Shown here one piece after another: positions 2,675 through 19,588 of a stretch of 64,000 bases of DNA (position 1 is its first letter; each line of letters begins with the position of its first letter). The DNA is from Rhabditoides inermis (taxonomy: Eukaryota; Nematoda; Chromadorea; Rhabditida; Rhabditidae): assembly GCA_963966185.1 (NCBI GenBank), contig CAWZYM010000190.1:345001-409000 (forward strand). The letters run 5' to 3'. The translations under genes were made by a program, and so were the position numbers. Under the pieces are notes generated by a model. That model worked only from the letters and a program-made list of their open reading frames with translations. It made no database searches and had not been told where the DNA came from.

Positions 2675-3510
2675 ATGACCAAGCGAAAGAGGACCGGGGG
2701 CATCTCTCGTCCCACCACCCCCTCCTTAGAGTCTGATACCCGTCTTGACGATCTTGAGCTCAAGCTTACTACCCTCGTTGACAAAGTGGCCAACCTCACC
2801 GACATGATGACCAAAATATTCGATCGATTGTCGTCTCCCTCTCAGTCTTTCACCCCACTGTCTACTGCCACCTCTCTGATCGATTGTTCTCTGACTAGTG
2901 CTCTGTCCGGCCCCTCTGCGTCTCTGCCCCGCCCGTGTTGTGCTCTTCCCTCCCGTATGGTCACCCGCCTCTCTCCCTCCAGCAGTTTGCCGAGGTTGCT
3001 CCCGGGGTGAAGGAGTTCTATCCGGCTGTCACTCTTATTGAGGGAATGAGGACGTGGGCGCAGCTGCAGGAGAAACAGCACATCGCCGTGATCGAGAAGC
3101 TGCCGGAGACGAACACGTATCTGGACGAGCCGCCCGCCGACTACGCCTTCGTCGGTCGACTACTCGAGGCGTGTCAGATGAGTGAGAGGGATGTGGAGTG
3201 CGTGTGGCGCATCCACTCTGCCAAGGAAGATCGCGCGCGCCCCCTCAAAATCAGATTCCGTGATCCCCGCTTGCGAGACAGATTCCTTACCCGGTACTAC
3301 AAGTGTTTCCCCCGCGACCTCAAGATCCACGGCAAGGTTATCCCCGTAGCTAGGCGGAATATGACGCGTCCCGAACTGAACCTACAGTACAACCTCCGCA
3401 AGCAAGTGTATGAGTACAATAAGTCCAAGGGAATCATCCAGTATGTCTACCGTGATCTGAATGTAGTTGAGCTTCCCACTCCGTTCCGCCCTTTCTTTGA
3501 CCGTGGTTAG
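2675..3510 (+). pseudogene. LINE-1 ORF1, frameshifted
   Basis: The start at 2675 opens a 111-codon frame with a basic N-terminus and a coiled-coil-like stretch (about residues 20-50: LDDLELKLTTLVDKVANLT), followed by a Ser/Pro-rich linker. That frame ends near 3010. The body of the protein continues in another frame from about 2935 to 3510, with an RRM-like segment (PLKIRFRD) and a basic C-terminal region (RRNMTRPELNLQYNLRKQV) as in LINE ORF1 nucleic-acid chaperones. The break lies between about 2890 and 3010. ORF1 proteins normally coat the LINE RNA. Assignment rests on position and on partial resemblance to the intact ORF1 at 17922-18767. Confidence 0.7.
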
Positions 3511-3519
3511 GACAATGGG

Positions 3520-6473
3520 GTGTGCCCTCAGAGCCGTAGTTCTACCCAGTACTCTTTCAATCATTGTTCTTCACCTCCCTATCCCCAGCCTGTACAGTTG
3601 ACCAAACATAGCAGTACTCACGCGACAGATAAGACATTGATAGTCTGCAGTTTTAATGCGCGTTCTATCGCGTCACGTTTTCGAATAGAATTACTCTTCC
3701 AGTTTTTAATTTCGCAAAAGATTGACATTTGTCTTATTCAAGAAACTTGGTTAGACAATTCAAAAATACCTGATAGCTTTTTTAATCACAAAACCTATAA
3801 TTTGATACGGAAAGACAGATATTTTGGTGAAAAGACATGTGGTGGCGGTATTCTTGCACTTATCAAAAAACAAATCAAGTTTGCTGAGATTGACACTTCT
3901 GCAGTCTAAAATAGTGATTTTGATTTAATGGCCTTTGATATTTACACGAAGAAACGCATTTTAAGGATCATAAATGTTTATCGACCACCTGATTGTAACG
4001 ACAGCGACCAATTAACTTCACAACTATCTAAATTGGTTACACCTAGTACTCTAATTGCAGGCGATTTCAATTTTCCCTCTATTGATTGGCAGTCTCTTAT
4101 GCCACCTCGCGACTTGAAGGCGCGCCACTTTCTCGAGTTTTTGAACGACAATTGTTTTGATCAGTATGTTAATTTTCCCTCGTTATGGAAAAACGAAAGT
4201 ACAAACATTTTAGATTTGATCTTAACAACTTTCTGAATTAGAAACTCGTCATTTGTTAAGACTGAAGCGTTTCATAAATCAGACCACGTTAGTGTGCTCT
4301 GTACATTGAACATAGCTGAAAATGATTATTCACATAATGTACTAAACCGCCTCAATTACAAAAAAGTTAAGTTCGAAGAAATAAATTCTGATTTGGCAGA
4401 AATAGATTGGTTAGCTCAACTTTCTTCTCAGTCAGTTCAGTCAGTAAATGACAACTATGCAACTTTCACAAAAATTGTAAATTCTATCGTCCAGAAATTT
4501 ACCCCAGTCATCAAATCACGGTGTGAAAAGAGTGATTTACCCAAATCAATTCATGATCTCTACTCTACATTCGCAAAAGAGAATTGTGGCGAGTTTATCA
4601 TCATTCTACTACGGCTAGAGCAGAATACAAAAAGTTATCTAAGAAGATCAAAAAAAGAAACAAAAAAATACTTTTCCAAAATCGAACACAAAACAGTAGA
4701 CGAATACAACGGGATATTCCGTTTTGTCAGAAGTAAATTAAAACTCCCAAATTCAATTCCAGCTTTAGTTTCTTCTGATGGAGCGAGTTTGTCTGATGGT
4801 GACAAGACAGAAACGTTCAAAAAACAGTTTCAATCAGCATTTACAGTGGATAATACTCAATCGATCCCAAACATGGACTCAAAATCCCCAGTATCACCAG
4901 TTCTCCATTTAGAACCATACGTCATATATCATTATCTAAAGAAGCAACCACTCAAGTTTTCGTTTTCGAAAGAAGGGTTGAATCAGTACATCCTTAAGAA
5001 ATGTGCTGTTCCACTAGCGGTTCCGTTGTCAATGATATTCACACAGTCTATATATCTATCCAAATTGCCAGATGATTGGAAGATAAGTTATGTTATTCGA
5101 ATTCACAAGAAAGGCATTAAATTCAAGCCAGAAAACTATAGACCAGTTTCTCTCACTTCTCCAGTCTGTAGAATGTTTGAGAGAATCATTGCTGATGCTA
5201 TCTATCAATCCGTTGGAAACCGTTTTGCTGATGTTCAATATGGTTTCTTGAAAAAGAGATCCTGTGTTACTCAATTATTATCCACAATTAGTGATTGGCA
5301 AGCTCATTTAGCCCAAAAATCCACCATATCTATAAAAATACACCACCTATAAAAATCCATGTATTTACTTCGATTTTCAAAAAGCTTTTGATAAAGTAAG
5401 CCGTACTAAACTCCTTTACAAGTTGGACAAATTCGGAATTGTGCAGAATAGTCCAGTTTTTAACTGGGTTCGGGCATTCCTATCTAACAGAGTGGCCTAC
5501 GTACGCATAAACGAATCCCTCTCTAGCCCGTTTGATGTAACTAGTGGAGTTCCACAAGGATCAGTCCTTGGGCCTCTTCTCTTTCTGATTTTCATTAACG
5601 ACATAGTAAAATGTAAGTATGGAGGAAGGCACCAGTTGCAACATGTTTGCAGATGATTTGAAAGCATACTCTAGTGATCAGAACTCTCTTCAAAAAACAA
5701 TAAATAATGTGGTTGAGTGGTCTCATAAATGGCAACTTCCACTAGCTGATAATAAACTTCAAGCTATAAGTATAAGAAATAAAAATACTCCCAGACATTA
5801 CAGTATCAAAGGTCAGCTTATAGAAAACGTTTCCACAGTTCGAGACTTGGGAATCAACATTGATTCTGATCTCAAATTCTCAGGTCACATTGAAACCATA
5901 ACAAAATCCACTACTGCTAAAGTCAATCACATCTTGCGTGCATTTTCCAGTACAGACACATCATTATATGTGAAATTGTTCAAAACTTATATTCGACCTT
6001 GTCTTGAATACGGTACAGAAATATTTAATCAGCCAAGTAATAGCAGTCTAACAAAACGCTTAGAGACACCATTGCGGTATTTCACAAAGGAGGTTTTCAA
6101 AAGATGTAATCCATCTTTACCTATACCATCATATCCAGATCGTCTTGCACTCATGGGTTTGCAGTCATTATATGAACGTAGGCAACATAACGATTTAGTA
6201 ACCTTGTACAAAATCCTTACAAACCGATTACATTTAGATCAAAACCATATTCCAGCCATTCATCACTCGAGATACAACACTAGATCTCACGAGAAACAAA
6301 TTGCGATTCCTAGAAATAAGTATAAAGATGAAAATTTCTATTTTAATCGTGTAGTTAAACCGTGGAACAACCTTCCGTTCAATCTTGATAACGCATATTC
6401 AATTTCCGAAATGAGAAAACTATTGTCGAACTGTGACGTATTAATGTTTGGTCAACTCCCCCACTTTTTGTAG
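3520..6473 (+). pseudogene. LINE-1 ORF2 (endonuclease-reverse transcriptase), broken
   Basis: ORF2 would nick target DNA and prime reverse transcription from the nick. The frame opening near 3520 carries the endonuclease motifs (SFNARSI about 3650, QETWL about 3740, VYRPP about 3980, GDFNF about 4062, ILDLIL about 4210). It is interrupted by TAA at 3907-3909 and TGA at 4234-4236, both in the same frame. RT begins in that frame (ENYRPVSL about 5130) until a stop at 5350-5352. It continues after a shift with FDFQKAFD (about 5373) and GVPQGSVLGPLLF (about 5546), then shifts again near 5620-5645 into the frame with FADD (about 5645-5656) and the C-terminal domain to 6473. Near 5310-5360 a short A-rich segment appears partly duplicated, which may have caused the first shift. 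Confidence 0.9.
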
Positions 6474-6591: not shown

Positions 6592-6666
6592 CCTAGGGTT
6601 AGCCTTGTTTATCCACATATTTTTCATGCTTGCCTTTTATCGTTATCACTTCTCCCTTGCCGTGGA

Positions 6667-6672
6667 AATAAA
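6667..6672 (+). promoter_or_regulatory. Polyadenylation signal of LINE-1
   Basis: AATAAA lies about 10 nt before the sequence becomes satellite. This fits the 3' end of a LINE transcript and supports placing the LINE end at about 6681. There is no poly(A) tail or simple-repeat tail between it and the satellite. Confidence 0.55.
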
Positions 6673-6681
6673 CACTTCAAT

Positions 6682-7124
6682 AACAAACTGGAAAGCGGGT
6701 AGGTGAAACTGATCACTTTATTTTATACGGGCAGGAGTGGTCTGAATAAGTTTGTGATTTGTACTTAATTTGAATTTTCCAATCCAGTACGACAAAGTAA
6801 GCATCATTTGCATGTCAGGGAGAGAGAATGGAGTGCTGCGAACAATCTGGAAAGCGGGTTGGTGAAACGGATCACTTTATTTTAAACGGGCAGGAGTGGT
6901 CTGAAAAAGTTTGTGATTTGTATTTCAACTGAGTTTTCCAATCCAGTACGACAAAGTAAGCATCATTTCATTTGCATGTCCGGAAGAGATAATGGAGTGC
7001 TGCGAACAAACTGGAAAGCGGGTTGGTGAAACGGATCACTTTATTTTATACGGGCAGGAGTGGTCTGAATAAGTTTGTGATTTGTATTTAATTTGAATTT
7101 TCCAATCCAGTACGACAAAGTAAG
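6682..7124. repeat. 159-bp satellite, left remnant (about 2.8 units)
   Basis: A partial unit (6682-6796), a full 159-bp unit (6797-6955) and a 164-bp unit (6956-7119) with an extra 5 bp giving CATTTCATTTGCAT. Identity to the large array right of the LTR element is obvious by eye. The array is cut at a GTAAG that is repeated after the right LTR, so this remnant and the array from 19584 were contiguous before the insertion. Confidence 0.97.
7120..7124. other. Target site duplication, left copy
   Basis: GTAAG directly precedes the left LTR. It is part of the satellite consensus (ACAAAGTAAGCATC) and recurs at 19584-19588 directly after the right LTR, where the satellite resumes with GTAAGCATC. 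Five base pairs is a usual duplication length for BEL/Pao and other LTR elements. Confidence 0.95.
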
Positions 7125-7512
7125 TGTGCGGAACCAAGAATGGAACCATGTGCTATCCGGCGGTTCAGTGGATTTATAACACAACACTTGATGATCTTAT
7201 TTCCTACCAGTCCACCCTGGTTGGCACTATAGCGAGAGACGCCCATGAATGCCACAACAGCCTAATCCCCCACTCTCTCACCCCCTTACCCCCAATAACC
7301 ACTACTTAGATGGAACCACATCCCCAAAATGTCCACACTACTCAAATACGCGAAACACGAACATGAGCACTATCATATTTATTGGTGGGTGGAAAGGCGA
7401 GAGAGAAGAGCGAGAGGTCACTCTGCTCCGTGGAGGAACGGGGAACGACTCTTCTGTCCAGTTAGTGGCGGGGGCGGGGCCGCGCGCCATCGCGGTTCCA
7501 ATGACCGCGACA
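7125..7512 (-). repeat. 3' LTR (388 bp)
   Basis: Direct copy of 19196-19583, running from TGTGCGG to GCGACA on the + strand. I compared the two by eye and see one difference: T here near position 7380 where the right copy has C. On the sense (-) strand the LTR begins TGTCGCGG and ends CCGCACA. It has a GC-box-like CCCCGCCCCC near its 5' part and a TTATAAAT near its 3' part. Confidence 0.97.
7172..7179 (-). promoter_or_regulatory. TATA-like motif in the LTR (also 19243-19250)
   Basis: The - strand reads TTATAAAT in both LTRs, about 50 bp before the sense-strand 3' end of the LTR. A GC-box-like stretch lies at 7470-7480 (and 19541-19551) near the sense 5' end. If this TATA is used, R and U5 together would be very short. 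The role is inferred from motif and position only. Confidence 0.3.
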
Positions 7513-7521
7513 CTCCCGCGG
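7513..7521 (-). other. Candidate polypurine tract (weak)
   Basis: On the sense strand the bases directly before the 3' LTR are CCGCGGGAG. Only GGGAG is a pure purine run, shorter than usual for plus-strand priming. The position is right; the match is poor. Confidence 0.3.
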
Positions 7522-8345
7522 CGGCAGATGAAGTCGGCGGCCGGCGAGCTGGACAGGAACCGGAAGGCGCGGAGAACATCGGAGCGGACGAGCGACGGCG
7601 AATCCTCGGACGGCAGCTGCTGGGCGACTCCTGGGTGGTCGTTGTCGATCTGCTTCTCCGGGATTCCTCGATGAGTGATGTCGTCTCCTCGTCTCGTTGT
7701 CTCCGCGCAACCTTCTTCACATCATCGTCTGTTCTCTCGCTTTCTGAGCCCCACGCAGATGTGATCTTATGACAATCGGAGGAGTCGGGTGGCACAAGGA
7801 CATGATGAGATCAACATGCCATCTTCCTTGCATGGACACATGTCTGTTCACGAACCTTTGTGGCTCATTCTGTGTTTTACACTCACTTTCTGCAAAAAGA
7901 ACTTCAAATGACCAAATGCCCCATTTTCGTCCAATCCGATATCTGCGTGGTTTCCCACCAAAAATGACTACGAATAAACCATTACATAATATCAACATAG
8001 TGCCTCTCTATCAGGTACCCGCGCCGCTATCGCGCTATCACTGTCTGCGACGCGATGTGATCTCGTGCTGACTGTGAGAGGCCCTCTACGATCAGCGGGA
8101 CGAGAAGCGTTGTATCTCGTATCTTCCCATTGATCAGATGGGATCCTCCGCCGCCGGCCTATCTGCTGTCACTGTGATACTTGTTGTTGCTTTTGCGGCG
8201 TTGGCTCTTTGAGATAGATTGACAACAAATAAGAATACTGTCCTGGGAACCTTGCAGATACGACGTATCTTGCATTGTGAGAAAAAAAGGGGTTGTACGA
8301 AATACATAGAGAGTTGCTTATATACCATAATATCGTTGTCGTGTT
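7513..8345 (-). other. 3' untranslated region between env stop and 3' LTR
   Basis: About 830 bp without a recognisable gene. Several ORFs of 80-150 codons cross it on both strands, some running from the LTR into it; none resembles a known product or shows domain motifs. I see no tandem repeats here. Confidence 0.5.
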
Positions 8346-11300
8346 TTAGAGACACGCGATAGCGCACGGAATGACGACTTTCACTATAAAGAACACTATA
8401 GCCACTAGTACAGCCACGCTTCCAATAATTGTAGGAAGGTTTCGCACAAATTCCAGAATGGAAATGGCAAAGCTGGGTGTCTCTATCGTCTCCGTTCGCA
8501 CTACTTCGCCGTCGACTGTCGTTCCGAGAATGCTTCCAATCTCGTCTGCACCGGCATAGTGTAGAATTCCGTCTAGTTGAATGGCTGTCCTCTTTCCACC
8601 GCATCTCAGAGTGCAGGAGAACTTGCCCTCCGGCTGGCTGGACTTGAACCTTACAGTGTTGACGGTGCCTTTCGGCTCGCATCTGATCGTGTCTGTCAGC
8701 TGGCCGTTGCAGACCAGCTGTGCCGTGGTCGTTGTGTCCGTATCGGAGGCGCAAGTGACATTCACGTGGGCGCCACTCACACATGAGTAGCAACCACTGA
8801 GGTGTCCGTAAGACACTACAGTGCATCTGGAAACTGATTGCTCGGTTCTTGTTTTCAGATCCTTGTCCAGATTAACCTGCAGATGCACGTTGTTGTGCAT
8901 TGTGCGAAAGATTGGCAGCCTGCCAGCTTTGGACTGCAGGATCTCAAAGTGCCTTCCAATCAGCGGCAGTCGGCTGCTCTCATCTTCTACCAGCTTCGAA
9001 TAGTCAACTGGCTTTTTGCACGTGCACACCGCCGTGTCCTCTGCCGGGTTGCATCTGCATGTCTCGCGGTACGAGCACTTGTTGAATTGATCACAGAGCA
9101 ATAGGGGTGTTGGCAGCGTTGACCTCGCTAGCGCCAGCTTCTCCCTGAATGCAACAAACGTGTGGAGCATGTATCGTATTGGCTCTGTCGTTGCTTCAAT
9201 CACGGTGATATTACTTCTCTCTAGCACTGCTGTTCCTCCGTTGTCTACTATGAGAGTGTGATTTGCTCTTTTTCCTGCTCGTACCACCTCCACGTTTATC
9301 ACCGCCTGTCTGTCGAAATTCTCGCACTCAAACAATTCGACTGGGTCCGACACCGTTGGCACGACGTAGTTGGTCACAAATAGGCATCCGGGTGTGGGCA
9401 GCAGGCATCCACATTGCATAAACCCGCAAGATTCCATACAGTAAGACGCGCCTGCGTGACCCGCTGCCTGTGTCAGCTCGGGAATCACAGTGCTCGTGTT
9501 GACAGCTGCACACTTCTGCGCGGTGCATAGCGAGTTGCCCGCACATCGCTTCACGCTTGCGGTGTGGAGAGAGACGTTCTTTGTGTACATGACAGATCCC
9601 GGGACACACTTGCTGTCCACGTAGGAAAGCCGATACACATGTTTCTCCACGTCTGCGCCTTCTCCACCGATATGCAAGCATATCTCTCTCACTGTCGGAG
9701 TGAACATCAGCTCAACTGTCTTCCTTATCTTGCACTTGTTCCATGCGCACTGTTCCTCGCTGTGCGCAATGAGGATCGAGAGATCGCATGCCTGTGCGAT
9801 GGATAGGAGGGTGATCGTCGCTGCTATGAGTAGCATGCGATTCGGCGGAGTGCCTGTGCTCGCCATCCATGTTCTCATTTCAATATCGCCTGCGCGACCC
9901 TCTCGTCTCATGGACCCGAGTACCCTCCGGTGCAGAGGCGGCGTCTCTGATCCGATCAGTCCCTCTGTCTGCGCGCGCTCTCGCCTCGCTTCCATCCACT
10001 TGCGATGGGGGCAAAACACGCACCAGCACACAGCTACTCCCAGGAGAGTAAAGAACGCACAAACGTAAATTAGGAACAGACGGGTGTTACAATGGGGGTT
10101 CAACAGAATATGAGCAATGCATGTAACGCACTTCACTGTCTTGCAGTAATCCTTGGCGGGGCACGTCTTGGAGACTATCTGAGAGTGCGACTCTCCGACG
10201 CGTCTCCACTTCACAACGTGAGCTGTCGTTATCACGCTGATTGGGAGAATCACCTCCGTCTCATTCCCCGCTTCCAGACTGTGCAGGCAGTAGTGTTTTG
10301 AACACACATCGTATCTGCCCGAAGGCATCTTGTCTCGAAGGGTCACACCCGTTTCCGTGCAAACGATTACTGTTTCGTTTCCGGATTCGGTCACGTGCCG
10401 ATCATCTGTCTCGAACGGATCGTGAGATTTTATGTAATCAGTATGACTGTCCGCATCACCTGGGCTATCCACTACTCGATTGGAATCTTGCCAGCGGATC
10501 TCATTGCCCTTCGTTGCCAGCCGGCTGCGCAATTGAGTGCCCCTCATTAATCCAGCGAGATATGCCCTTTGGCTTCTCAAGTCACCATCTAGCCACTCGT
10601 CATCTGATGTTTCGTTGATCGGAGGGAGAGTGGTGACTGGTTTTGCCGGTGACTTCTTCGTGGATTGAATGTTTCCGATTCTCCTTGTTTCCACGCTACT
10701 CGCAGCCGAACTTGGCGGCTTTGTAGTTTGTACGGGATGAGAGAGAGAGGGGAGCGAGGTCATTGCGGTCGCGCGAGTCTTGGAGGGGTGCGGGGTCGAC
10801 TGCCCCGGTGGCAATGTTGTCTCCCATTTTCGCACTTCCTCGTTGTAGTCTCGCATTGCGTTCGCAGGGGAGAAGAGGGCGAACAATGACAAAACCGTAA
10901 TCAGCGCGGCCGCACGGTTGATTTTGACCGGCTTCTGTTTCGGCTTTGGCTGCGGTCTCTCGATCTCGTCCCGCCCTTCCTTCTGTCCCGTGACCAGTGC
11001 CGTCGGCCACTCAAGGCGCGACTTGTTCTTATCCCTGACCATATTACCCACAATGTTTCCATCCACGGTGTTTACTTGAGCCGTGTTCACCGATACGAAG
11101 TTCACGTCACTGACTGTGTTTTGTCCGACGATCACTCGGCCAAAAATCGTTGAAATGACCATCGCACCCGAAGGCAACACCACGCGGCTCGCTGGGTCGA
11201 CGACGTGCCAGAACACGTCTGCCCCGAGCAGGATGCCGGGCTTGCGCGCCTCCTCGTTGTTCGTCTCCATGCCCAACTTATTCAGTTCATCCAGGTCTTT

Positions 11301-11771
11301 TTTGTTGAGTTTAGAACTGCGCACAGGATTTGTGATTTTTTTCTTAGTGAGCAGTTTGCACTCCATTCTCTTTCCACTGGGGAGGAGGAATGTAGTCGGG
11401 CGCAGAGAGGATTCCTCCTTGACGGATACGCCGCCGAACACCGACAGGTGCAACGTCGTCTCCTCCAGCGAGGGTAGGCCGAGCTCGTTAGCAAGGCCCT
11501 CGTCAATGAAAGATCTCTCTGCTCCGCTGTCGAGCAGTACATCGACTGGCACCTCCTTTCCCAAGTGGGATAGAACACGGGCTCGCACGACCATCAGTCT
11601 GCCCGAGCCGCCTGCCACGTGATTGACAGCGAGCCCTTTCCAGAATGGCTTCTTCTTGTTCTGTTCATTGGAAGAGATCTCATTGCTGCTGTCCTGGATT
11701 TGGCTTTTCTGTTCCTTGTCACACATGGAGGTGTGATGCGAGCGACTGCAATGTTTGCACTTGGAAGACAT
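8346..11771 (-). CDS. Aspartic protease fused in frame to Gn/Gc-like envelope glycoprotein
   Basis: One 1141-residue ORF. Residues 1-20 continue the nucleocapsid zinc-knuckle region of Gag (CKHC, HHTSMC). A retropepsin of the DUF1758 type follows, with catalytic DSGA at 81-84 and a C-terminal part near 180-217. After about 220 comes a short low-complexity linker (221-284), not RT. Residues 285-305 are hydrophobic and end in a signal-peptidase-like SPANA. An ectodomain with Thr/Pro-rich start and a Cys-rich end runs from 306 to 563, then a membrane segment at 564-587. A second signal-like segment lies at 645-661, followed by a Cys-rich domain (662-1105) with a dense cysteine cluster at 778-796 and N-glycosylation sequons, then a membrane anchor at about 1113-1135 and a short tail. 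This two-glycoprotein layout and the cysteine pattern recall phlebovirus-type Gn/Gc, where Gc is a class II fusion protein; such envelopes are known in nematode BEL elements. RT, RNase H and integrase, normally between protease and envelope, are absent. The first ATG lies inside the gag overlap, so the true start may be by frameshifting from gag. Confidence 0.85.
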   Translation of the reverse strand: MSSKCKHCSRSHHTSMCDKEQKSQIQDSSNEISSNEQNKKKPFWKGLAVNHVAGGSGRLMVVRARVLSHLGKEVPVDVLLDSGAERSFIDEGLANELGLPSLEETTLHLSVFGGVSVKEESSLRPTTFLLPSGKRMECKLLTKKKITNPVRSSKLNKKDLDELNKLGMETNNEEARKPGILLGADVFWHVVDPASRVVLPSGAMVISTIFGRVIVGQNTVSDVNFVSVNTAQVNTVDGNIVGNMVRDKNKSRLEWPTALVTGQKEGRDEIERPQPKPKQKPVKINRAAALITVLSLFALFSPANAMRDYNEEVRKWETTLPPGQSTPHPSKTRATAMTSLPSLSHPVQTTKPPSSAASSVETRRIGNIQSTKKSPAKPVTTLPPINETSDDEWLDGDLRSQRAYLAGLMRGTQLRSRLATKGNEIRWQDSNRVVDSPGDADSHTDYIKSHDPFETDDRHVTESGNETVIVCTETGVTLRDKMPSGRYDVCSKHYCLHSLEAGNETEVILPISVITTAHVVKWRRVGESHSQIVSKTCPAKDYCKTVKCVTCIAHILLNPHCNTRLFLIYVCAFFTLLGVAVCWCVFCPHRKWMEARRERAQTEGLIGSETPPLHRRVLGSMRREGRAGDIEMRTWMASTGTPPNRMLLIAATITLLSIAQACDLSILIAHSEEQCAWNKCKIRKTVELMFTPTVREICLHIGGEGADVEKHVYRLSYVDSKCVPGSVMYTKNVSLHTASVKRCAGNSLCTAQKCAAVNTSTVIPELTQAAGHAGASYCMESCGFMQCGCLLPTPGCLFVTNYVVPTVSDPVELFECENFDRQAVINVEVVRAGKRANHTLIVDNGGTAVLERSNITVIEATTEPIRYMLHTFVAFREKLALARSTLPTPLLLCDQFNKCSYRETCRCNPAEDTAVCTCKKPVDYSKLVEDESSRLPLIGRHFEILQSKAGRLPIFRTMHNNVHLQVNLDKDLKTRTEQSVSRCTVVSYGHLSGCYSCVSGAHVNVTCASDTDTTTTAQLVCNGQLTDTIRCEPKGTVNTVRFKSSQPEGKFSCTLRCGGKRTAIQLDGILHYAGADEIGSILGTTVDGEVVRTETIETPSFAISILEFVRNLPTIIGSVAVLVAIVFFIVKVVIPCAIACL

Positions 11772-13206
11772 GCGAATCAGAGAGGCAGTTGAAACATAAT
11801 CTCAGCTCAGCCACTCTCCTCCGGCGTTCCTCCGGAGTTCTGTACTTCTTGCATTCGCCGGACCAGTGGTTGCTCATTGAACAGTATTTGCATGTCTTGC
11901 TGGCAGTGTCTGCGCTGGTAGTGAACACGACCGACTCGGTCTCGCGTTCTGCGGTCTTCCCTTCTGCCCTCTCAAACTCCTTTTCTTCCATTCTGTAGAT
12001 GATCAATTCGATCTCTCTTAGGAGCTCGTCTACATCGTCCTTATCGAGCAGGTCTTCCACCAGTTCCAGCTTGTCCCAGACAATGTCTGGGAATTTCCTT
12101 TTGATGGTTGTAAATAGGAAGGGGTTCTGGGTGGGTGCGAACTCGGCGAGTGACGCCACGAGCGCCACGAGCTCGTCGTGCATTGCACGCAGATCAGCCG
12201 GTTTCTTTGAAGTCACCGGCTTCAGACTGATTATCTTGTCGTGATAGATCTGACGCTGCCGTTCAGGCCTTGCGTACGTCCTCTGCAGGTGGGAAACGGC
12301 GTCGTGGTATCTCTCGCCCGATGCGGGGAAACGGCGGATGGCTGCGAGAGCAGGCCCGGAAAGACTAGATGTCAAAGCCGTCATCTTGACGACAGACTCG
12401 CCCTCACGGCGGTGTACCAACTCGTTGAACACTGCCCAAAATCTTGCCCATTCGCTGTACTCCCCCGAAAACACAGGGATTTCCAGCTTGTGAGACTTGG
12501 CCAGGACCACCGCCAGATCGAGCGCGCGCGGGGCGACGGCATTGTCTGTCCTCCTCGGAGGGCGGACAGGCGTGGTCTCTGCTGCCGCTGGCGCGAGCGC
12601 GGGTGCGACGCGCATTGCGGCTGTCGCCGATGCCATCTGCTCCCTGGCAGTGACTGACCTGCGAACCGCTCGCTTTACGGTGGCCGGCGTGTGTATTGTG
12701 GTCTCGTCAGATTCATCTGCACCCGTGCCCTCACTCTCTTCACTGGCGTCGGTGAAGAGGCTCTCTTCCAACACCAGACCCTCGAGGAATTTCGGGTGTT
12801 CGACTGCGGTGGCAGAGGGATCGAGCGCCGTGACTATGTTGTTCAGTTCATCGATTCGCCTTCTCATCCTTGCCACCACATTGGTCGCGGAGTTGATCAT
12901 GCGCATGGCCGAGTCTTTGATTGCGATGAACTCGTGTCGGCATGCGTTCTTCTCTTTTGCTGGCTTCGCAGAGAACAGCGTGTCTGTGCCATTCACATAG
13001 TCACACGCTTCTCGGCACTGCGCCTCCAGTGCCACAGTCGCCATCACAATCTCGGTCAACTTTTCCTTCATCTTCTTGAGGCTAGGCAAGGGAGTCTGCT
13101 TTCCGTACTTCTTCTCTAGTTTCACAATGTTTGCCTCCACCTTGCTGATCTTTCGCTTTGTTGCGAGACAGCCGACCGTAAAGGCCGGCGGGGGCACAGC
13201 TGCCAT
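11719..13206 (-). CDS. gag: Gag polyprotein (BEL/Pao, DUF1759-like)
   Basis: 495 residues. The N-terminal half is rich in Lys/Glu and predicted helical, with an acidic stretch near 155-170 and an Ala/Pro-rich linker around 190-225. Residues about 238-385 match the DUF1759-type BEL/Pao Gag core (motif PVFSGEYSEWARFWAVF, then the helical repeat region through FPDIVWDKLELVEDLL). A CCHC zinc knuckle, CX2CX4HX4C, is at 439-452. A second knuckle starts at C471 but is interrupted because this frame leaves the homologous sequence after residue 480; the remaining knuckle residues are in the frame of the 8346-11771 ORF, overlapping by 53 bp. Either a programmed ribosomal frameshift or a small deletion accounts for this. 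Gag assembles particles and packages element RNA. The ATG at 13206 is the first in frame. Confidence 0.88.
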   Translation of the reverse strand: MAAVPPPAFTVGCLATKRKISKVEANIVKLEKKYGKQTPLPSLKKMKEKLTEIVMATVALEAQCREACDYVNGTDTLFSAKPAKEKNACRHEFIAIKDSAMRMINSATNVVARMRRRIDELNNIVTALDPSATAVEHPKFLEGLVLEESLFTDASEESEGTGADESDETTIHTPATVKRAVRRSVTAREQMASATAAMRVAPALAPAAAETTPVRPPRRTDNAVAPRALDLAVVLAKSHKLEIPVFSGEYSEWARFWAVFNELVHRREGESVVKMTALTSSLSGPALAAIRRFPASGERYHDAVSHLQRTYARPERQRQIYHDKIISLKPVTSKKPADLRAMHDELVALVASLAEFAPTQNPFLFTTIKRKFPDIVWDKLELVEDLLDKDDVDELLREIELIIYRMEEKEFERAEGKTAERETESVVFTTSADTASKTCKYCSMSNHWSGECKKYRTPEERRRRVAELRLCFNCLSDSHVFQVQTLQSLASHLHV

Positions 13207-13336
13207 GTTGATGTCTGCGCTCTCTCACTCTTTCTGTTTCGCTATCTCCTCAGCAATCAGGCGATGACCGAATCACAAAGAGGCGTGCGAAAAGAAACTC
13301 GTTAAGACAGACAATAGTTCTTTTTTGTTTCCACGG
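13207..13336 (-). other. Leader directly upstream of gag
   Basis: 130 bp between the tandem repeats and the gag start. No motif recognised. Confidence 0.4.
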
Positions 13337-13887
13337 TCAGCCTTTGCAGGCGAGTGGCTACAGTTGGCTCAAGTTGCGAGTCTTCTTCCACAGTCAGCCT
13401 TTGCAGGCGAGTGGCTACAGTTGACTCAAGTTGCAAGCCTCTTCCACAGTCAGCCTTTGCAGGCGAGTGGCTACAGTTGGCTGAAGATGTGAGCCTCTTC
13501 CACAGTCAGCCTTTGCAGGCGAGTGGCTACAGTTGGCTCAAGTTGCGAGTCTTCTTCCACAGTCAGCCTTTGCAGGCGAGTGGCTACAGTTGACTGAAGA
13601 TGTGAGCCTCTTCCACAGTCAGCCTTTGCAGGCGAGTGGCTACAGTTGGCTCAAGTTGCGAGTCTTCTTCCACAGTCAGCCTTTGCAGGCGAGTGGCTAC
13701 AGTTGACTCAAGTTGCAAGCCTCTTCCACAGTCAGCCTTTGCAGGCGAGTGGCTACAGTTGGCTGAAGATGCGAGCCTCTTCCACAGTCAGCCTTTGCAG
13801 GCGAGTGGCTACAGTTGGCTCGAGTTGCGAGTCTTCTTCCACAGTCAGCCTTTGCAGGCGAGTGGCTACAGTTGACTCGAGTTGTAC
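13337..13887. repeat. Tandem repeat of 56/57-bp units in the leader, about 10 copies
   Basis: Units start at 13337, 13394, 13450, 13506, 13563, 13619, 13676, 13732, 13788 and 13845, each beginning TCAGCCTTTGCAGGCGAGTG. Spacing is 57 or 56 bp. A 57-bp type (with CTTCTTCCACAG) recurs among 56-bp types (with CCTCTTCCACAG), so part of the array repeats as a dimer of about 113 bp. They sit in the 5' leader of the LTR element on the sense-strand side of gag. Tandem repeats in a retroelement leader can act as enhancer-like or packaging sequence; there is no direct evidence for that here. Confidence 0.95.
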
Positions 13888-14815
13888 CGAATAGTTTGTC
13901 CAATCGTTATGTCTACCAAAGATTTTTCCTACTTCGTGGTGGAACGAAAGAGGAAAGACAACAACAGGGTACGAATCTCCGGACTCACAGTCTCCTTTTC
14001 TGCTACGCGGGACGGAAGACGCTTCGTAGATCTCACGGAAGTCTCTTCTCGTTCGGCGGTTGCAGGTGTGCTCGGAGCTGTGCGCGCGGCGGTCGGCTAG
14101 CTTGTTACAATGACCCTCTCTAGTGCCAACCCCGCAGCCTCGCCTTATCATAAATCTTGCGCGCCCGCTGCCTGTCAGGCAGTCGAGTCGTAAGGCCTGA
14201 CCCTGTGTTGCGCCACCGTGTGTTGCGCCATCCGGTCGGCGATCGCACAGTGCAAACACCGACTATCAGGCGACGCATGCCGCCAGAGATGCAGAATGTG
14301 ATACTGCAACCCTGGGATACAGTAATCCGCGCGCGTGTACTCAGCGTGAAACAAAGCTGAAATGCGGATGATAGTAGTCTAGTGCGGTAGTTACCAGCAA
14401 CGACGCTCCTCGGTCGTCCGGTGACTCGGCGTGCCACTCGCCGACGTCATCTACCTGTGGGGTACGGCTCGAACCGGCCGGTTCCGGCCCTCACCTACCC
14501 CGACCCCTAGCCGTGCGTTCTGCAAAGTGCACGGTGTGTCTGTGCTGTGCCAGACGGGTCAGTGTGTGTGTGTGTGTTAGACTAGCTAGTTTAGTTGCAC
14601 ACTTCCGATGTGTGCTCCTCTCTCGTATCCTCGTGCGTGATCACTGTGCAGGTGCAGCAGTGCTTGTTGTGAGTGTGCGTGACACTCCCCTCGGGGCATG
14701 ACCACTCCCAATCAGTGGTTTGACCCCAGCCGGCGTTGCGGCGGCAGTGCGAGATCGGTGATCAAGTCGGCCGCTCGACACGTGCCTGTGCATGTGAACA
14801 TGCGTGTGAATGTGG
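13888..14815 (-). other. Leader segment between LINE tail and tandem repeats
   Basis: About 930 bp with no convincing gene. It contains a 14-bp perfect GC-rich palindrome GAACCGGCCGGTTC at 14471-14484 and a short TG run at about 14564-14577. ORFs up to about 168 codons here have no recognisable similarity and run into the tandem repeats. Confidence 0.45.
14471..14484. other. GC-rich 14-bp palindrome in the leader
   Basis: GAACCGGCCGGTTC is self-complementary and lies upstream of gag in the presumed genomic RNA leader. Retroviral dimer-initiation sites are short GC-rich palindromes in this position, but here the flanking stem needed for a kissing loop was not established. Confidence 0.3.
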
Positions 14816-14842
14816 TAATAATAATAATATAATAATAATATA
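14816..14842 (-). repeat. (TAA)n / (TTA)n simple-repeat tail of LINE-2
   Basis: About nine TAA/TA-type units on the + strand, read as TTATTATT on the LINE sense strand. They lie at the end of the LINE 3' UTR. CR1-group LINEs often end in short simple repeats instead of poly(A), so I place the 3' boundary here. Confidence 0.7.
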
Positions 14843-15118
14843 TTTATCCATAGAAACAGAATCGCAATGACAACATTGGAAAGACAACAAAAGTTATGAT
14901 GAACGAGTGTCCAACATCAATCGGTTTCCTTCCCAGTGAGGCAAAGCGAATACTGCGGAAGCCACCTCCAGACACCTTGACGTGTTTGACAGAAGTGTAC
15001 TTCCTCCACAGGCACTCTCGCGACGACAACTGAAATGAGTGAGGAGGCAAGCGCCTCATCATTAGAATCACCCAATCAAGTCAAACCACCCTGGAGCTTC
15101 TATCACATTAACAGACTA

Positions 15119-17953
15119 TTACAAACGTGTGGGGTCTTGAAACCTCTTTTGGATGGTACTGAAGAAATGATCAATTGCGACTCCAAATTCTTTCTTAGAT
15201 AAACAGGTGACCACGCTTCTATCCAAATCATTCCAATACTGGACAGCTCTATATAATATAAAACTTTGGCCTATCGTAGTGCGAGGTGAAGGGGCTGTGT
15301 TCTTGAGTTTCAACCCATGATTTCGCAATGTACTCATTCTAGAACCAACCGGGACTAGAGCGAATGGACATTCCGAGTTGAAATAACCATAAATGTATCT
15401 ATGTACAAATCGAATATCACACTTAACCCGTCGTAACCAGAGAGTGTCTAAATTATATCGTTTTAGTCTGCTTTCGTAATCTAGTTTAGGGGCTATGTAA
15501 CGGGTGAGCTTGCGCTGAACTGCTTCTAGATCATTTATATGACCTTTGTTAATCAAACAAAGAACTTCTGAACCATATTCTAGTGCCGGTCTTATTTTAG
15601 TTTTGTAGAAATTTAAGTAAAGTTGCTCATTTACATGGAAATTTGCTCTCAGTGCTCCAATTTTGGAAGAGGCTTTTTGGATAGCCTTCCGGATATGTTC
15701 TGATGGGTCGAGAGTAGATGTTAGAATAACACCCAAATCCTTCACAGAATCAGAGCACGAGAGAGTTACATCACCACATTTATAAACCGACTTGATAGGT
15801 TTCTTTCCGAAATGAACAACTGTGCACTTGGCAGCAGATAGCGCTAGCTGTCGCTCAGATAGCCACGCATATACTTCATTAAAATCGGATTCAAGACAAT
15901 CATGGAAGTTCGGTCGATTCTGAGATATTGACAATTTCATATCATCAGCATACAGAAAATACCTACAGTGCTTCACCACTTCACCAATACCATTTACATA
16001 AATCAAGAATAGAAGGGGTCCTAGGACTGATCCTTGTGGTACTCCACTCAAAACATTCTCCCAGCTCGAGTAACATTGTCCGATTTTGACTGACTGTGTC
16101 CTATCAGTTAAAAATAAAGAAAGCCAATTCAAGAGTTTACCATCAATGCCATAGGAACGGCACACTTCTAAAACTCTCCTATGCACCACACTATCAAACG
16201 CTTTCTTTATATCTAAATATATAGTGTCTACACCACTATTGTTTCCCAAATGTTCTACTAAATAGCTTACATAATCTACCATTTGAGTTATTGTTCCACG
16301 ACCGTTTAAGAAACCATGTTGAAATTTACTTACTATATTATATTGCCAAAGATGGGAACGAATAGTGTAACAAATGATCCTTTCAAACACTCGACTGATA
16401 CAACACGTGAGAGTAATCGGGCGATAGTTCGTGAACCGAGTTTTGTCACCGGATTTATATACTGGTACCACAATGCCTTTCCTCCAAATATTAGGAATCA
16501 CACCACATTGATAGCATTCTTCGAATATAATTGATAGAGGTAAAGCGATGACAGTAGCCAGAGATTGTAACACAAGTGACGGTATGTTATCAAGTCCACA
16601 AGATAGTTTTCTGTTCGTTCGTTTCAAATATTCATACACCACATGAGGACTAAAATCTATCTCTCCTATCGACTTAACACCAGGGAAATCTTTTAGATTA
16701 AATGGTCTGTTATCATCTCTCGAAAACACCGATACAAAGAACTTATTGAAGTGTGAAGCACGTTCAGTATCTTCTGATATGATATTGTCATTACTATCTC
16801 GCATATCAGGAACAGGATCAGTAGGTGAAAGTTTAGACTTGATATAGTTCCAATAGCGAGCAGGAGAGCTGGACTTGAGAATATGAGCTTCTCTTTCCTT
16901 GATACACGCGGATAGACTCACTCTATATTCCTTCAATAAACGTGTGTAGTTTGCTCGATCCTGCTCAAGTTTAGTGAACTTTTGTTTCGCATGCAGCCTC
17001 TTGACCCTCTTTTTCAATCGAGATAACCAATGTGGGAAACGTGGGGTATTGTCAGAGTGCACTGTGCGAGTAGGTATACGAAACTGTAGCGCATCTTCCA
17101 ACACATTGCAGAAAGCAGAATATTTAGAATCGATGTCAGCGCAGTCTCTGAATACTTGCTGCCAGTCCACCAACGCTAAATCACAGTTTACTGCGCCATA
17201 GTCGCCGTTCCTGTAGTCAAGTGATGGCTGAGTAGTGATCTGGGAAGGCTTAGTGAATCCAATAGTGAGGTCGGCTTCTATAGAGTCATGATCACTGTAC
17301 CCTGTAGACGTATGCACGTTACACACCAACGACTTATCAGAACTCAAGATTAGGTCTAAGATGTTGTTACCACGAGTTGGTTCAGAGACCAGCTGATAGA
17401 GACCCTGATTAATACACCAATTCAAAAACAACTGGGAGATAGAGTCACTCGCGCTATGACATAACCAAGAAATGTCAGGATAGTTGAAATCACCTAATAT
17501 GAGAAGAGAAGGCACTCTGCCAAGGGTTTCTATAAAATCTGAGAACTGGGTAATGAAATTTGCATCTCGCCCTGGTGGTCTATATACGCCCACCACTACA
17601 AACTCCATACCATTAGCACACACTCGGACCGCAATTGAATCAAAGGAAGTGGAGGTGTGTTTTGTGATCACAGACGAGCGCGCCGTTTCCGGTATGCAAA
17701 TCAAAACACCACCACCTCTCTTATGCACACGTGAAACGGAATAACTACAGAAACCAGGGAATTTTGGGACATTACAAGAAGGAGAAAGCCAAGTTTCAGT
17801 TAAAACAGCTATACATGATGGAGAGTTACAAAGAAAATGAGAAATACACAATTGATCGTTATAACTTTTTAGAGATCGAACATTAGCTAATAATAGTCTG
17901 TAGTGAATACTCCGAGGACGGCTAGACATGACTAGGCGATCCCGCAGAATCAA
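15119..17953 (-). CDS. LINE-2 ORF2: endonuclease-reverse transcriptase
   Basis: 944 residues, full length for a CR1-type ORF2. The apurinic-type endonuclease occupies about 1-230 with N24 (ANVRSL), E53 (TETWL), VYRPP at 123-127, GDFN at 154-157, D200 (ILDLIL) and SDH at 220-222. Reverse transcriptase covers about 480-760: the NYRPITLT motif near 509, D581 in LDIKKAFD, GVPQGSVLGPLLF at 637-649, and catalytic YADD at 668-671. A C-terminal domain typical of the clade follows to the end. All expected catalytic residues are present and there is no internal stop. It overlaps ORF1 by 32 bp in another frame, so translation probably depends on reinitiation or ribosome shunting. The start is the first ATG in frame; a downstream ATG at residue 9 is also possible. 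It is the only intact reverse transcriptase in the window. Confidence 0.93.
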   Translation of the reverse strand: MILRDRLVMSSRPRSIHYRLLLANVRSLKSYNDQLCISHFLCNSPSCIAVLTETWLSPSCNVPKFPGFCSYSVSRVHKRGGGVLICIPETARSSVITKHTSTSFDSIAVRVCANGMEFVVVGVYRPPGRDANFITQFSDFIETLGRVPSLLILGDFNYPDISWLCHSASDSISQLFLNWCINQGLYQLVSEPTRGNNILDLILSSDKSLVCNVHTSTGYSDHDSIEADLTIGFTKPSQITTQPSLDYRNGDYGAVNCDLALVDWQQVFRDCADIDSKYSAFCNVLEDALQFRIPTRTVHSDNTPRFPHWLSRLKKRVKRLHAKQKFTKLEQDRANYTRLLKEYRVSLSACIKEREAHILKSSSPARYWNYIKSKLSPTDPVPDMRDSNDNIISEDTERASHFNKFFVSVFSRDDNRPFNLKDFPGVKSIGEIDFSPHVVYEYLKRTNRKLSCGLDNIPSLVLQSLATVIALPLSIIFEECYQCGVIPNIWRKGIVVPVYKSGDKTRFTNYRPITLTCCISRVFERIICYTIRSHLWQYNIVSKFQHGFLNGRGTITQMVDYVSYLVEHLGNNSGVDTIYLDIKKAFDSVVHRRVLEVCRSYGIDGKLLNWLSLFLTDRTQSVKIGQCYSSWENVLSGVPQGSVLGPLLFLIYVNGIGEVVKHCRYFLYADDMKLSISQNRPNFHDCLESDFNEVYAWLSERQLALSAAKCTVVHFGKKPIKSVYKCGDVTLSCSDSVKDLGVILTSTLDPSEHIRKAIQKASSKIGALRANFHVNEQLYLNFYKTKIRPALEYGSEVLCLINKGHINDLEAVQRKLTRYIAPKLDYESRLKRYNLDTLWLRRVKCDIRFVHRYIYGYFNSECPFALVPVGSRMSTLRNHGLKLKNTAPSPRTTIGQSFILYRAVQYWNDLDRSVVTCLSKKEFGVAIDHFFSTIQKRFQDPTRL

Positions 17954-18767
17954 CGCCTACCACCCCACCCACCTCCGAAGTCCTCGTCCCAGCACCCGCG
18001 GACGCACTGCTTGCCCCGCCCGGTCCAGTCACACGACGACGGTAGAGCAGCTCGATCGACATATTGCGAATACAATACCTAGGATGGAAGAGAGATGAGT
18101 TGACAGACTGGACATAACCCCTAAGCTGCTTCTCCCTCTTACGTTCCTCATAGGTCAGGTCGTCGCGAGCGAACCGTCCCGCGTTCCTTCCGATGGCAGT
18201 CTTCACCGCGAGACGATGGTCGTTGTCCCGCAGCTCGATCTTGACAGGTCTCCAGCCAGCTCCCTTCCTCTCCTTCGGATGACGATACGCTTTGACGATC
18301 AGATCCTCCGGAAGTCCGTTCTCTAGCATAATCTCCTTGAACTTGACGGTCAGTTCCTCGTCGGTCTCTCCTTTCTCCTCTCGCCCGATCAGAACAATGC
18401 GCGCGTCCTTGTTGTCTTCCCGACGCTCCCTCTCCCTCTCACCAGAACGACAGTACTCCTCGTATTCCGGGTTACGGGGCGCCCTTGCGATGATGTGCTC
18501 CAACTTGTAGGGGTCAAATGGTATCTTCTTCTCGGCGATCATCACAGTGGGCTCAGCCTTCCTCTCCGCCGACTCCTCCTTTGACTTCTTCAGATCCGCC
18601 ATCTCCGACGTCAGCCTCTCCATAGTGGAGGAGAGATTCATGACCGTCACCTTGCACTGGTTCAGCTCCATACACTTGCCCTCGTACTTCTCCTGCAGCA
18701 GCTTGTACTTCTTCAGCAGCTCCTTATAGTTCCGCTCAGCATCTGGTTCCGGAGACGTTTCCGCCAT
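17922..18767 (-). CDS. LINE-2 ORF1: coiled-coil RNA-binding protein
   Basis: 281 residues, highly charged. A heptad-like coiled coil spans about 12-80 (rich in Glu/Lys/Leu). After a charged linker comes an RRM-like segment (about 120-180, with ARIVLIG and RPVKIELRD as candidate beta strands). A basic region follows (RFARDDLTYEERKREKQLR, about 203-221), resembling the C-terminal domain of L1-type ORF1 proteins. The tail after about 245 is Gly/Ser/Ala/Val-rich. ORF1 proteins trimerise and bind LINE RNA as chaperones. The reading frame is GC-rich compared with ORF2. The ATG at 18767 is the first in frame and fits the coiled coil starting soon after. Confidence 0.82.
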   Translation of the reverse strand: MAETSPEPDAERNYKELLKKYKLLQEKYEGKCMELNQCKVTVMNLSSTMERLTSEMADLKKSKEESAERKAEPTVMIAEKKIPFDPYKLEHIIARAPRNPEYEEYCRSGERERERREDNKDARIVLIGREEKGETDEELTVKFKEIMLENGLPEDLIVKAYRHPKERKGAGWRPVKIELRDNDHRLAVKTAIGRNAGRFARDDLTYEERKREKQLRGYVQSVNSSLFHPRYCIRNMSIELLYRRRVTGPGGASSASAGAGTRTSEVGGVVGVDSAGSPSHV

Positions 18768-19177
18768 GATGACAAAAGGCGGACAGCGAAATAAATAACA
18801 CCCGACCGCACAGCGCGAGACAAAAACGGGGAATCTAAATACCTAGGATGATTTCAAATTCAAGCGGTGCTGCGATTCAAGAACTTTAGGTGCGCGAGAG
18901 TGATGATACAACCGAGCCGCGACAAAATGAAATCAGAACATACACGAGTGACGTCAAAAGAACCGCAAAATTGTACGCAGAGGAAGATTCACCCGTCGGT
19001 GAAACGAGAGTTAGACATACTATCACTGTATCAAATCAATATTAGAATACTGCGATCGCACAATATTCGATAACGGCACACGCGCTGTTGAGGAAAGATC
19101 AAAAAGACGCTAAAAAGCGACAAGTGAAGTGTAGAATGCTCATCGGGAGCAACGCGGAAAGCGACAAGAAAGAATGG
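18768..19177 (-). other. LTR-element leader plus LINE-2 5' UTR, boundary unknown
   Basis: About 410 bp between LINE ORF1 and the primer-binding site. Part belongs to the LINE 5' UTR and part to the LTR-element leader. No gene is supported; short ORFs on both strands have no recognisable content. Confidence 0.5.
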
Positions 19178-19195
19178 AATTTGGCCGTTGCACCA
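19178..19195 (-). other. Primer-binding site for minus-strand synthesis
   Basis: On the sense strand the sequence directly after the 5' LTR is TGGTGCAACGGCCAAATT. It begins with TGG, complementary to the CCA end of a tRNA, and there is no gap to the LTR. The implied tRNA 3' end is ...GGCCGTTGCACCA. I could not name the tRNA with confidence. Confidence 0.8.
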
Positions 19196-19583
19196 TGTGC
19201 GGAACCAAGAATGGAACCATGTGCTATCCGGCGGTTCAGTGGATTTATAACACAACACTTGATGATCTTATTTCCTACCAGTCCACCCTGGTTGGCACTA
19301 TAGCGAGAGACGCCCATGAATGCCACAACAGCCTAATCCCCCACTCTCTCACCCCCTTACCCCCAATAACCACTACTTAGATGGAACCACATCCCCAAAA
19401 TGTCCACACTACTCAAATACGCGAAACACGAACATGAGCACTATCATATTCATTGGTGGGTGGAAAGGCGAGAGAGAAGAGCGAGAGGTCACTCTGCTCC
19501 GTGGAGGAACGGGGAACGACTCTTCTGTCCAGTTAGTGGCGGGGGCGGGGCCGCGCGCCATCGCGGTTCCAATGACCGCGACA
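19196..19583 (-). repeat. 5' LTR (388 bp)
   Basis: Same length and, by eye, identical to 7125-7512 except for one base (C here near 19451). It would drive transcription leftward through the element. The satellite restarts at the next base with the duplicated GTAAG. Confidence 0.97.
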
Positions 19584-19588
19584 GTAAG
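19584..19588. other. Target site duplication, right copy
   Basis: GTAAG follows the LTR end ...GCGACA and matches 7120-7124. The satellite then continues with CATCATTTGCATG. Confidence 0.95.

Follow-up and report, generated by a model that had tools for sequence, protein, structure and literature searches.

The 64,000-nucleotide stretch of the Rhabditoides inermis genome analysed here (contig CAWZYM010000190.1, C190:345001-409000; hereafter the window) carries on its minus strand a BEL/Pao provirus that encodes Gag, protease (PR) and envelope (Env) without reverse transcriptase (RT), RNase H or an integrase core, and that is a derivative of BEL/Pao rather than an autonomous member. The copies sharing its pol excision junction, here termed T1, likely represent a non-autonomous BEL/Pao family with env that exists in many copies, was active recently and obtains RT and integrase from relatives. 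We assign this reading a probability of about 0.8.

A first-pass annotation of the window had described a Gag-protease-envelope element lacking RT, RNase H and integrase, and the domain matches bear this out. Using Pfam profiles, the gag open reading frame (ORF; 13206-11719) matched DUF1759 (E 1.2e-18), and the envelope part of the second ORF (11771-8346) matched Phlebovirus_G2 (PF07245; 9.1e-54). The protease of the second ORF was recognised by Asp_protease_2 (7.3e-5) and DUF1758 (0.009), both slightly under the curated cut-offs. Among structure chains, the Gc part matched several phlebovirus Gc chains and 7a4a (3.7e-27), which we take to be the Atlas virus Gc structure, the table labelling 7a4a only as an integrase-domain protein. 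No LTR-type RT, RNase H or integrase core was found between the long terminal repeats (LTRs) of the window element; a hidden LTR-type pol was rejected, as the sole RT detected there (RVT_1) is that of a CR1-like long interspersed nuclear element (LINE).

The deleted segment is defined by a pol-bearing relative, C341:739k (L041/L009), which has ~3.2 kb extra between protease and envelope. There it carries the BEL-type RT and RNase H (Peptidase_A17 4e-40, RVT_1 5e-13) and integrase (H2C2 4e-7, rve 2e-5, DUF5641 2.5e-16); RT, RNase H and the integrase core are missing from the window copy, where the excision junction lies at 11041..11053. The earlier reading of the ~65 residues before the envelope as a linker was right in part; residues about 242-273 are the shortened C-terminal tail of integrase (10953..11048). 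Around 30 residues of this tail are kept, in frame and shorter than in L009 by 26 codons and by 2 codons; the remnant was found by comparison with L009, and no Pfam profile matched over it.

The genome (172.6 Mb, 599 contigs) was searched with a 301-bp junction query, and the locus counts from this search are lower bounds. The T1 junction was present at full length, with 95-100% identity, at at least six loci including the window, each on a different contig. Thus the search that the first-pass annotation had proposed yielded five more loci that share the junction, four of them with paired near-identical LTRs. Altogether, LTRs are paired in five of the six copies, with substitutions of 1/388, 0/387, 1/387, 1/387 and 1/365, and the 5-bp target site duplications (TSDs) are perfect in four copies and match at 4 of 5 bases in C148. 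Because the LTR pairs show 0-1 substitutions, these five copies were inserted recently, and for the window copy the recent insertion deduced earlier from one difference in 388 bases was confirmed by the LTR pair together with the TSD GTAAG. Six copies share the junction; pol loss is therefore older than the T1 insertions, which excludes the earlier suggestion that pol was lost just before or after the insertion in the window. Use of the RT and integrase of another element, the other possibility raised at that stage, is supported by the junction family and its pol-bearing relatives.

Repeats carry a general risk of assembly collapse, and pol might have been absent from this copy only, through a single private deletion. 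With five other loci sharing the junction, the six lying on six contigs and five having paired LTRs and their own TSDs, collapse is untenable, and the probability of either explanation is negligible. A pol-bearing T1 copy was not found, the next-best PR match after the six having 72% identity. LTRs on C426 (95% matches) were considered as the ends of a full-length partner and rejected, no BEL frame of at least 100 aa being recognised in L022 and L024, the two flanks inspected out of three.

Gag, PR and env matches lie within one ORF in C441 (1631 aa), C283 (1632 aa) and C209 (1627 aa). In the other T1 copies the frame is broken, in the window between gag and PR, in C148 in env, and in C105a in both PR and env; the split between gag and PR is private to the window copy, the three sister copies having a single ORF. 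Omega was counted at variable sites among T1, with each gene covered in part (gag ~209 codons, PR ~209 and env ~457). For gag it was 0.22 (p 5e-6) in all six copies, 0.20 without the decayed C105a and 0.15 in the four least decayed copies; for env it was 0.30 (p 1e-8) in all six and 0.33 (p 3e-5) without C105a, and for PR 0.40 (p 0.02) in all six. Since all six copies share the loss of pol, the selection on gag and env postdates it. Purifying selection after pol loss is firm for gag and good for env.

These values bear on the possibility that T1 elements are pure passengers, i.e. deletion copies moved wholly by the proteins of full-length elements, with gag and env as hitchhikers that have not yet decayed. 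Known deletion derivatives such as cattle D-type ERVK behave in this way, according to the available portion of PMC10924933; a second BEL lineage in this genome has multi-copy partial pol deletions, some not divisible by three, and the T1 protease is without firm constraint. Pure passengers are nevertheless unlikely, since gag and env are under purifying selection in copies that postdate the loss and three of the six have kept an ORF of ~1,630 codons.

Three further pol-less junction types occur in the clade, namely T2 (C477, C105b, C413, C213 and C409), T3 (C201) and T4 (a pair on C341 with 99.4% identity to each other). Read by eye, the left breakpoints of T1, T2 and T4 lie within ~13 bp of one another immediately behind the protease, and their right breakpoints are spread over ~320 bp of the integrase end. 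On its left side T3 retains a further ~190 bp, derived from the region that separates PR from the RT domain. The junction is in frame in all four types; T4 has a frame break in PR, just upstream of its junction and distinct from it. T3 and T4 are not nested, so the breakpoints require a minimum of two origins. Ancestry suggests three or four: the left-hand parts of T2 and T4 are of different descent, which adds a third loss, and T1 probably adds another. The branching of T1, T2, T3 and the pol-bearing group was not resolved in the PR tree.

The nearly identical left boundary of T1, T2 and T4 resembles a fixed splice donor, as expected if spliced RNA had been retro-copied and the junction were an exon-exon boundary. 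However, the parent lineage of T4 (96% identical over PR) does not read GT...AG at the two breakpoints, and the left boundary of T3 differs. The splice test covers T4 and T3, since no parent was found for T1 or for the left-hand portion of T2, and we consider retro-copied spliced RNA very improbable.

To compare pol-less with pol-bearing copies, env and PR matches were paired after removal of second pieces and weak matches, which left 73 of 101 env matches and 66 of 111 PR matches. Env lay less than 2.5 kb from PR in 14 cases and at least 2.5 kb away in 41, and 18 env matches were without a PR partner. The 14 short-distance pairs are the pol-less copies (6 T1, 5 T2, 1 T3 and 2 T4), whereas only two of the 41 long-distance pairs, C331 and C341:739k, belong to the clade, so that 14 pol-less stand against 2 pol-bearing paired copies. 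This count left unplaced a small number of matches to env or gag alone, and in C145 the gag and PR matches are rearranged and env has no match. Separately, the second env-bearing BEL lineage (C127, C142, C295, C363, C428, C507 and others), with an env ~31% identical, includes copies in which one ORF runs over 3559 aa. Its multi-copy shorter PR-env spacings are 3128, 3840, 4219, 4405 and 5359 bp vs 5497 bp, the differences including the lengths not divisible by three.

Recombination is seen in T2, whose identity with the pol-bearing lineage is 74-76% in PR and 93-97.5% from the junction into env; because the identity switches there, the crossover is placed at the excision junction. The PR tree puts T2 on a branch of its own (100/99). 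The env tree, four rows of which cover less than half of the columns, does not set T2 apart from the pol-bearing and T4 rows. T2 is a recombinant between pol-less and pol-bearing lineages, and such a crossover would be expected if the template had switched from one to the other of two RNAs packaged together. In C355, C393 and C407, whose 5' ends were not among the sequences compared, gag is followed directly by sequence resembling the 3' untranslated region and LTR, with no PR, pol or env. The first 1.6 kb examined of C407 is 99.2% identical to the pol-bearing C331 and the remainder matches C355 and C393; C407 is a recombinant with the C331 lineage. The gag-only copies C355, C407 and C393 (L060, L061 and L062) have in common an Asp-rich, Cys-rich C-terminus.

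Primer-binding site (PBS) and leader connect T1 with its pol-bearing relatives. Two tRNA-Gly(GCC) genes were inspected, and both terminate in GGCCGATGCA. The T1 PBS reads TGGTGCA(A/T)CGGCC and, with CCA added to the tRNA, shows 1 mismatch in 13 in the window (19183..19195) and none in C209 and C283. The pol-bearing C331 (11.96 kb; LTRs of 332 bp, 99.4% identical; TSD GACAT) has the same PBS as the window copy. Over the initial ~346 nt of leader sequence, identity to C331 was 93.9-94.5% for five T1 copies (93.9% for the window, 18850..19195, PBS included), 94.4-94.7% for two T2 copies and 88% for the more distant locus C196. The next 550 nt of the T1 leader showed 85% identity, and the T1 LTR was 78% identical to that of C331 over the 203 bp that could be aligned. 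C341:739k and C331 are 99.2% identical over the 1.5 kb compared. Between T1 and C341:739k identity was 70-71% in PR and 66% in env; in the PR and env match searches, C341:739k had 64% (PR) and 73% (Env) identity to the window. Of the stretches compared, conservation is thus highest where the RNA is primed and perhaps packaged, as a common replication machinery predicts. As an observation on the tRNA genes themselves, the tRNA-Gly(GCC) pattern has 170 exact matches genome-wide, and among the matches listed (~100) many tRNA-Gly(GCC)-like genes follow one another in long tandem arrays at C146:1136862-1235346, mostly 0.57-0.81 kb apart and on both strands.

From these data a replication cycle can be proposed for T1. 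The ancestor probably encoded Gag, PR, RT, RNase H, integrase and Env as one polyprotein, from which RT, RNase H and integrase would have been lost by in-frame deletion or template switch, the Gag-PR frame continuing into the internal signal peptide of Env. T1 RNA would then be translated into a Gag-PR-Env polyprotein and packaged by its own Gag. RT and integrase would be supplied in trans from the polyproteins of pol-bearing relatives, in mixed particles and through the common tRNA-Gly PBS and leader. As deduced from sequence, own-Gag packaging, Gag-PR-Env translation and supply of the enzymes in mixed particles are together likely, to the same degree as the family itself.

Several observations weigh against this reading. 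A stop-free gag-PR-env ORF is present in only three of the six T1 copies and in none of the T2, T3 and T4 copies, and both pol-bearing copies of the clade, C331 and C341:739k, have interrupted frames, no intact close helper having been found. PR omega was 0.51 (p 0.32) without C105a, and the four T1 copies with the least decay gave 0.86 (p 0.73); constraint on the protease after pol loss is unproven. Env omega rose to 0.50 (p 0.036) in the same four copies. Finally, the chance of 1/81 that four of four junctions are in frame is valid only if the four events were independent.

BEL/Pao elements have short TSDs, and DUF1759 and DUF1758 are domains associated with BEL. The window element has a 5-bp TSD and the BEL-type gag and protease domains, DUF1758 being weak and below its cut-off. 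Its 388-bp LTRs are in the range of 0.2-1.2 kb given for BEL/Pao, and its PBS is of the tRNA-Gly type, one of the two (tRNA-Arg or tRNA-Gly) used by BEL/Pao, although the match here covers 12-13 nt vs 18 nt in the rule (PMC8742986). A polyprotein running through a phlebovirus Gc-like class II fusion protein is seen in C441, C283 and C209 but not in the window copy, which does have the fusion protein (PF07245, 7a4a). According to the accessible part of PMC9094657, Atlas virus and other nematode belpaoviruses can have one continuous polyprotein through a phlebovirus-like Env. T1 is like Atlas virus in this and in its Gn/Gc-like envelope, but Atlas virus keeps pol. Nematode belpaoviruses have the RT motif YVDN in the same portion of that source, vs YVDD in the pol-bearing relative L041.

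The closest precedent, which lowers the newness of T1, are the pol-less elements of Athila in Arabidopsis. As described in the available part of PMC2410132, these carry gag and env ORFs under purifying selection, occur also as gag-only forms and recombine among lineages, and their mobilisation in trans was inferred. Like them, the elements studied here are multi-copy, lack pol, have kept gag and env under purifying selection, include gag-only forms and recombine. Athila, however, is a plant Ty3/Gypsy element with separate Gag and Env ORFs, and so works alike without T1 being a member; T1 is BEL/Pao, has kept the protease and one fused polyprotein, and belongs to a clade in which in-frame excision happened more than once. 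Cattle ERVK[2-1-LTR] D-type, ETn/MusD and IAP I-delta-1 are non-autonomous deletion derivatives mobilised in trans, as far as the consulted part of PMC10924933 goes. As in these, non-autonomous copies outnumber competent ones and the ends are kept, but ERVK D-type has no functional genes whereas gag and env of T1 are still coding. No pol-less BEL/Pao family was described in the literature searched, i.e. mostly titles and abstract starts of open-access papers, with subscription journals mostly outside, and a check for the terms non-autonomous, deletion and incomplete found no mention in the available text of the BEL/Pao survey PMC3118150. When residues 40-560 of the PR-Env ORF served as a protein query, no hit at E 0.001 was obtained among 7993 scored candidates (0.55-1.75x query length). 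Chicken EAV-HP, reportedly another pol-deleted element, was not used as a precedent.

The coordinates given in the first-pass annotation were 8346..13206; the element spans 7125-19583, lengthened by a nested LINE and a long leader. The 5' LTR (19196..19583, minus strand, TG...CA) and the 3' LTR (7125..7512, minus strand) are flanked by the TSD GTAAG at 7120..7124, inside a 159-bp satellite, and at 19584..19588. All inner features are likewise on the minus strand. In the gag ORF (11719..13206) the frame breaks close to the end, at the zinc knuckles, and the protease occupies 11050..11771 of the second ORF. A hydrophobic stretch at 10854..10928 is the probable internal signal peptide of the envelope (8346..10853), which consists of a Gn-like part with a hydrophobic anchor (10017-10073) followed by the Gc-like part with a C-terminal anchor (8370-8459). 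The hydrophobic stretches are compatible with an internal signal peptide, a Gn anchor, a Gc signal and a C-terminal anchor. The CR1-like LINE (~4.03 kb; 14820..18848, ends approximate) lies in the leader, with ~4 bases repeated at its ends, and contains ORF1 (18842-17922) and ORF2 (17956-15119) with endonuclease and RVT_1. It is private to the window copy and lies outside the family, not being found in the four other T1 copies with leader sequence examined. Tandem repeats of ~56/113 bp in the leader (13329..13884) also occur in sister copies; in the window copy and in L014, L016 and L017 the ~56-bp repeat directly precedes gag, and relatives have pre-gag tandem repeats as well.

The element sits in a 159-bp satellite array that extends over 19583-64000 and 6645-7124 of the window, a 44-kb array of ~279 copies with 96% matches. 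GC skew is +0.30 to +0.34 over 20-64 kb. A near-perfect 9-bp tandem array (AGAAGATTC; 114 copies, 99%) occupies 1-1027 and 1301-1397, and ORF pieces at 2899-6473, adjoining the satellite, resemble by eye a second, broken LINE.

A further possibility, which we put forward tentatively and consider doubtful, is a modular, multi-component system, as opposed to a host with its parasite, in which surplus structural proteins come from Gag-PR-Env and gag-only copies and the enzymes from a small number of Gag-Pol-Env copies. If so, the balance of Gag to Pol would be set by splitting off pol-less copies, because the full-length polyprotein is equimolar and has no frameshift to limit Pol, and the recurrent in-frame excision, the selection on gag and env and the majority of pol-less over pol-bearing copies would be explained.

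Many non-autonomous LTR elements lose all coding capacity, whereas this clade repeatedly dropped only the enzymes and kept inserting, with Gag, protease and envelope kept in frame and gag and env under selection. The parallel with Athila suggests convergent evolution of enzyme-less elements. T1 and its relatives thus offer a concrete case for asking whether pol-less copies are parasites or suppliers of structural proteins. They also bear on how a one-polyprotein retroelement balances Gag vs Pol, and on template switching between co-packaged RNAs as a source of new element types.

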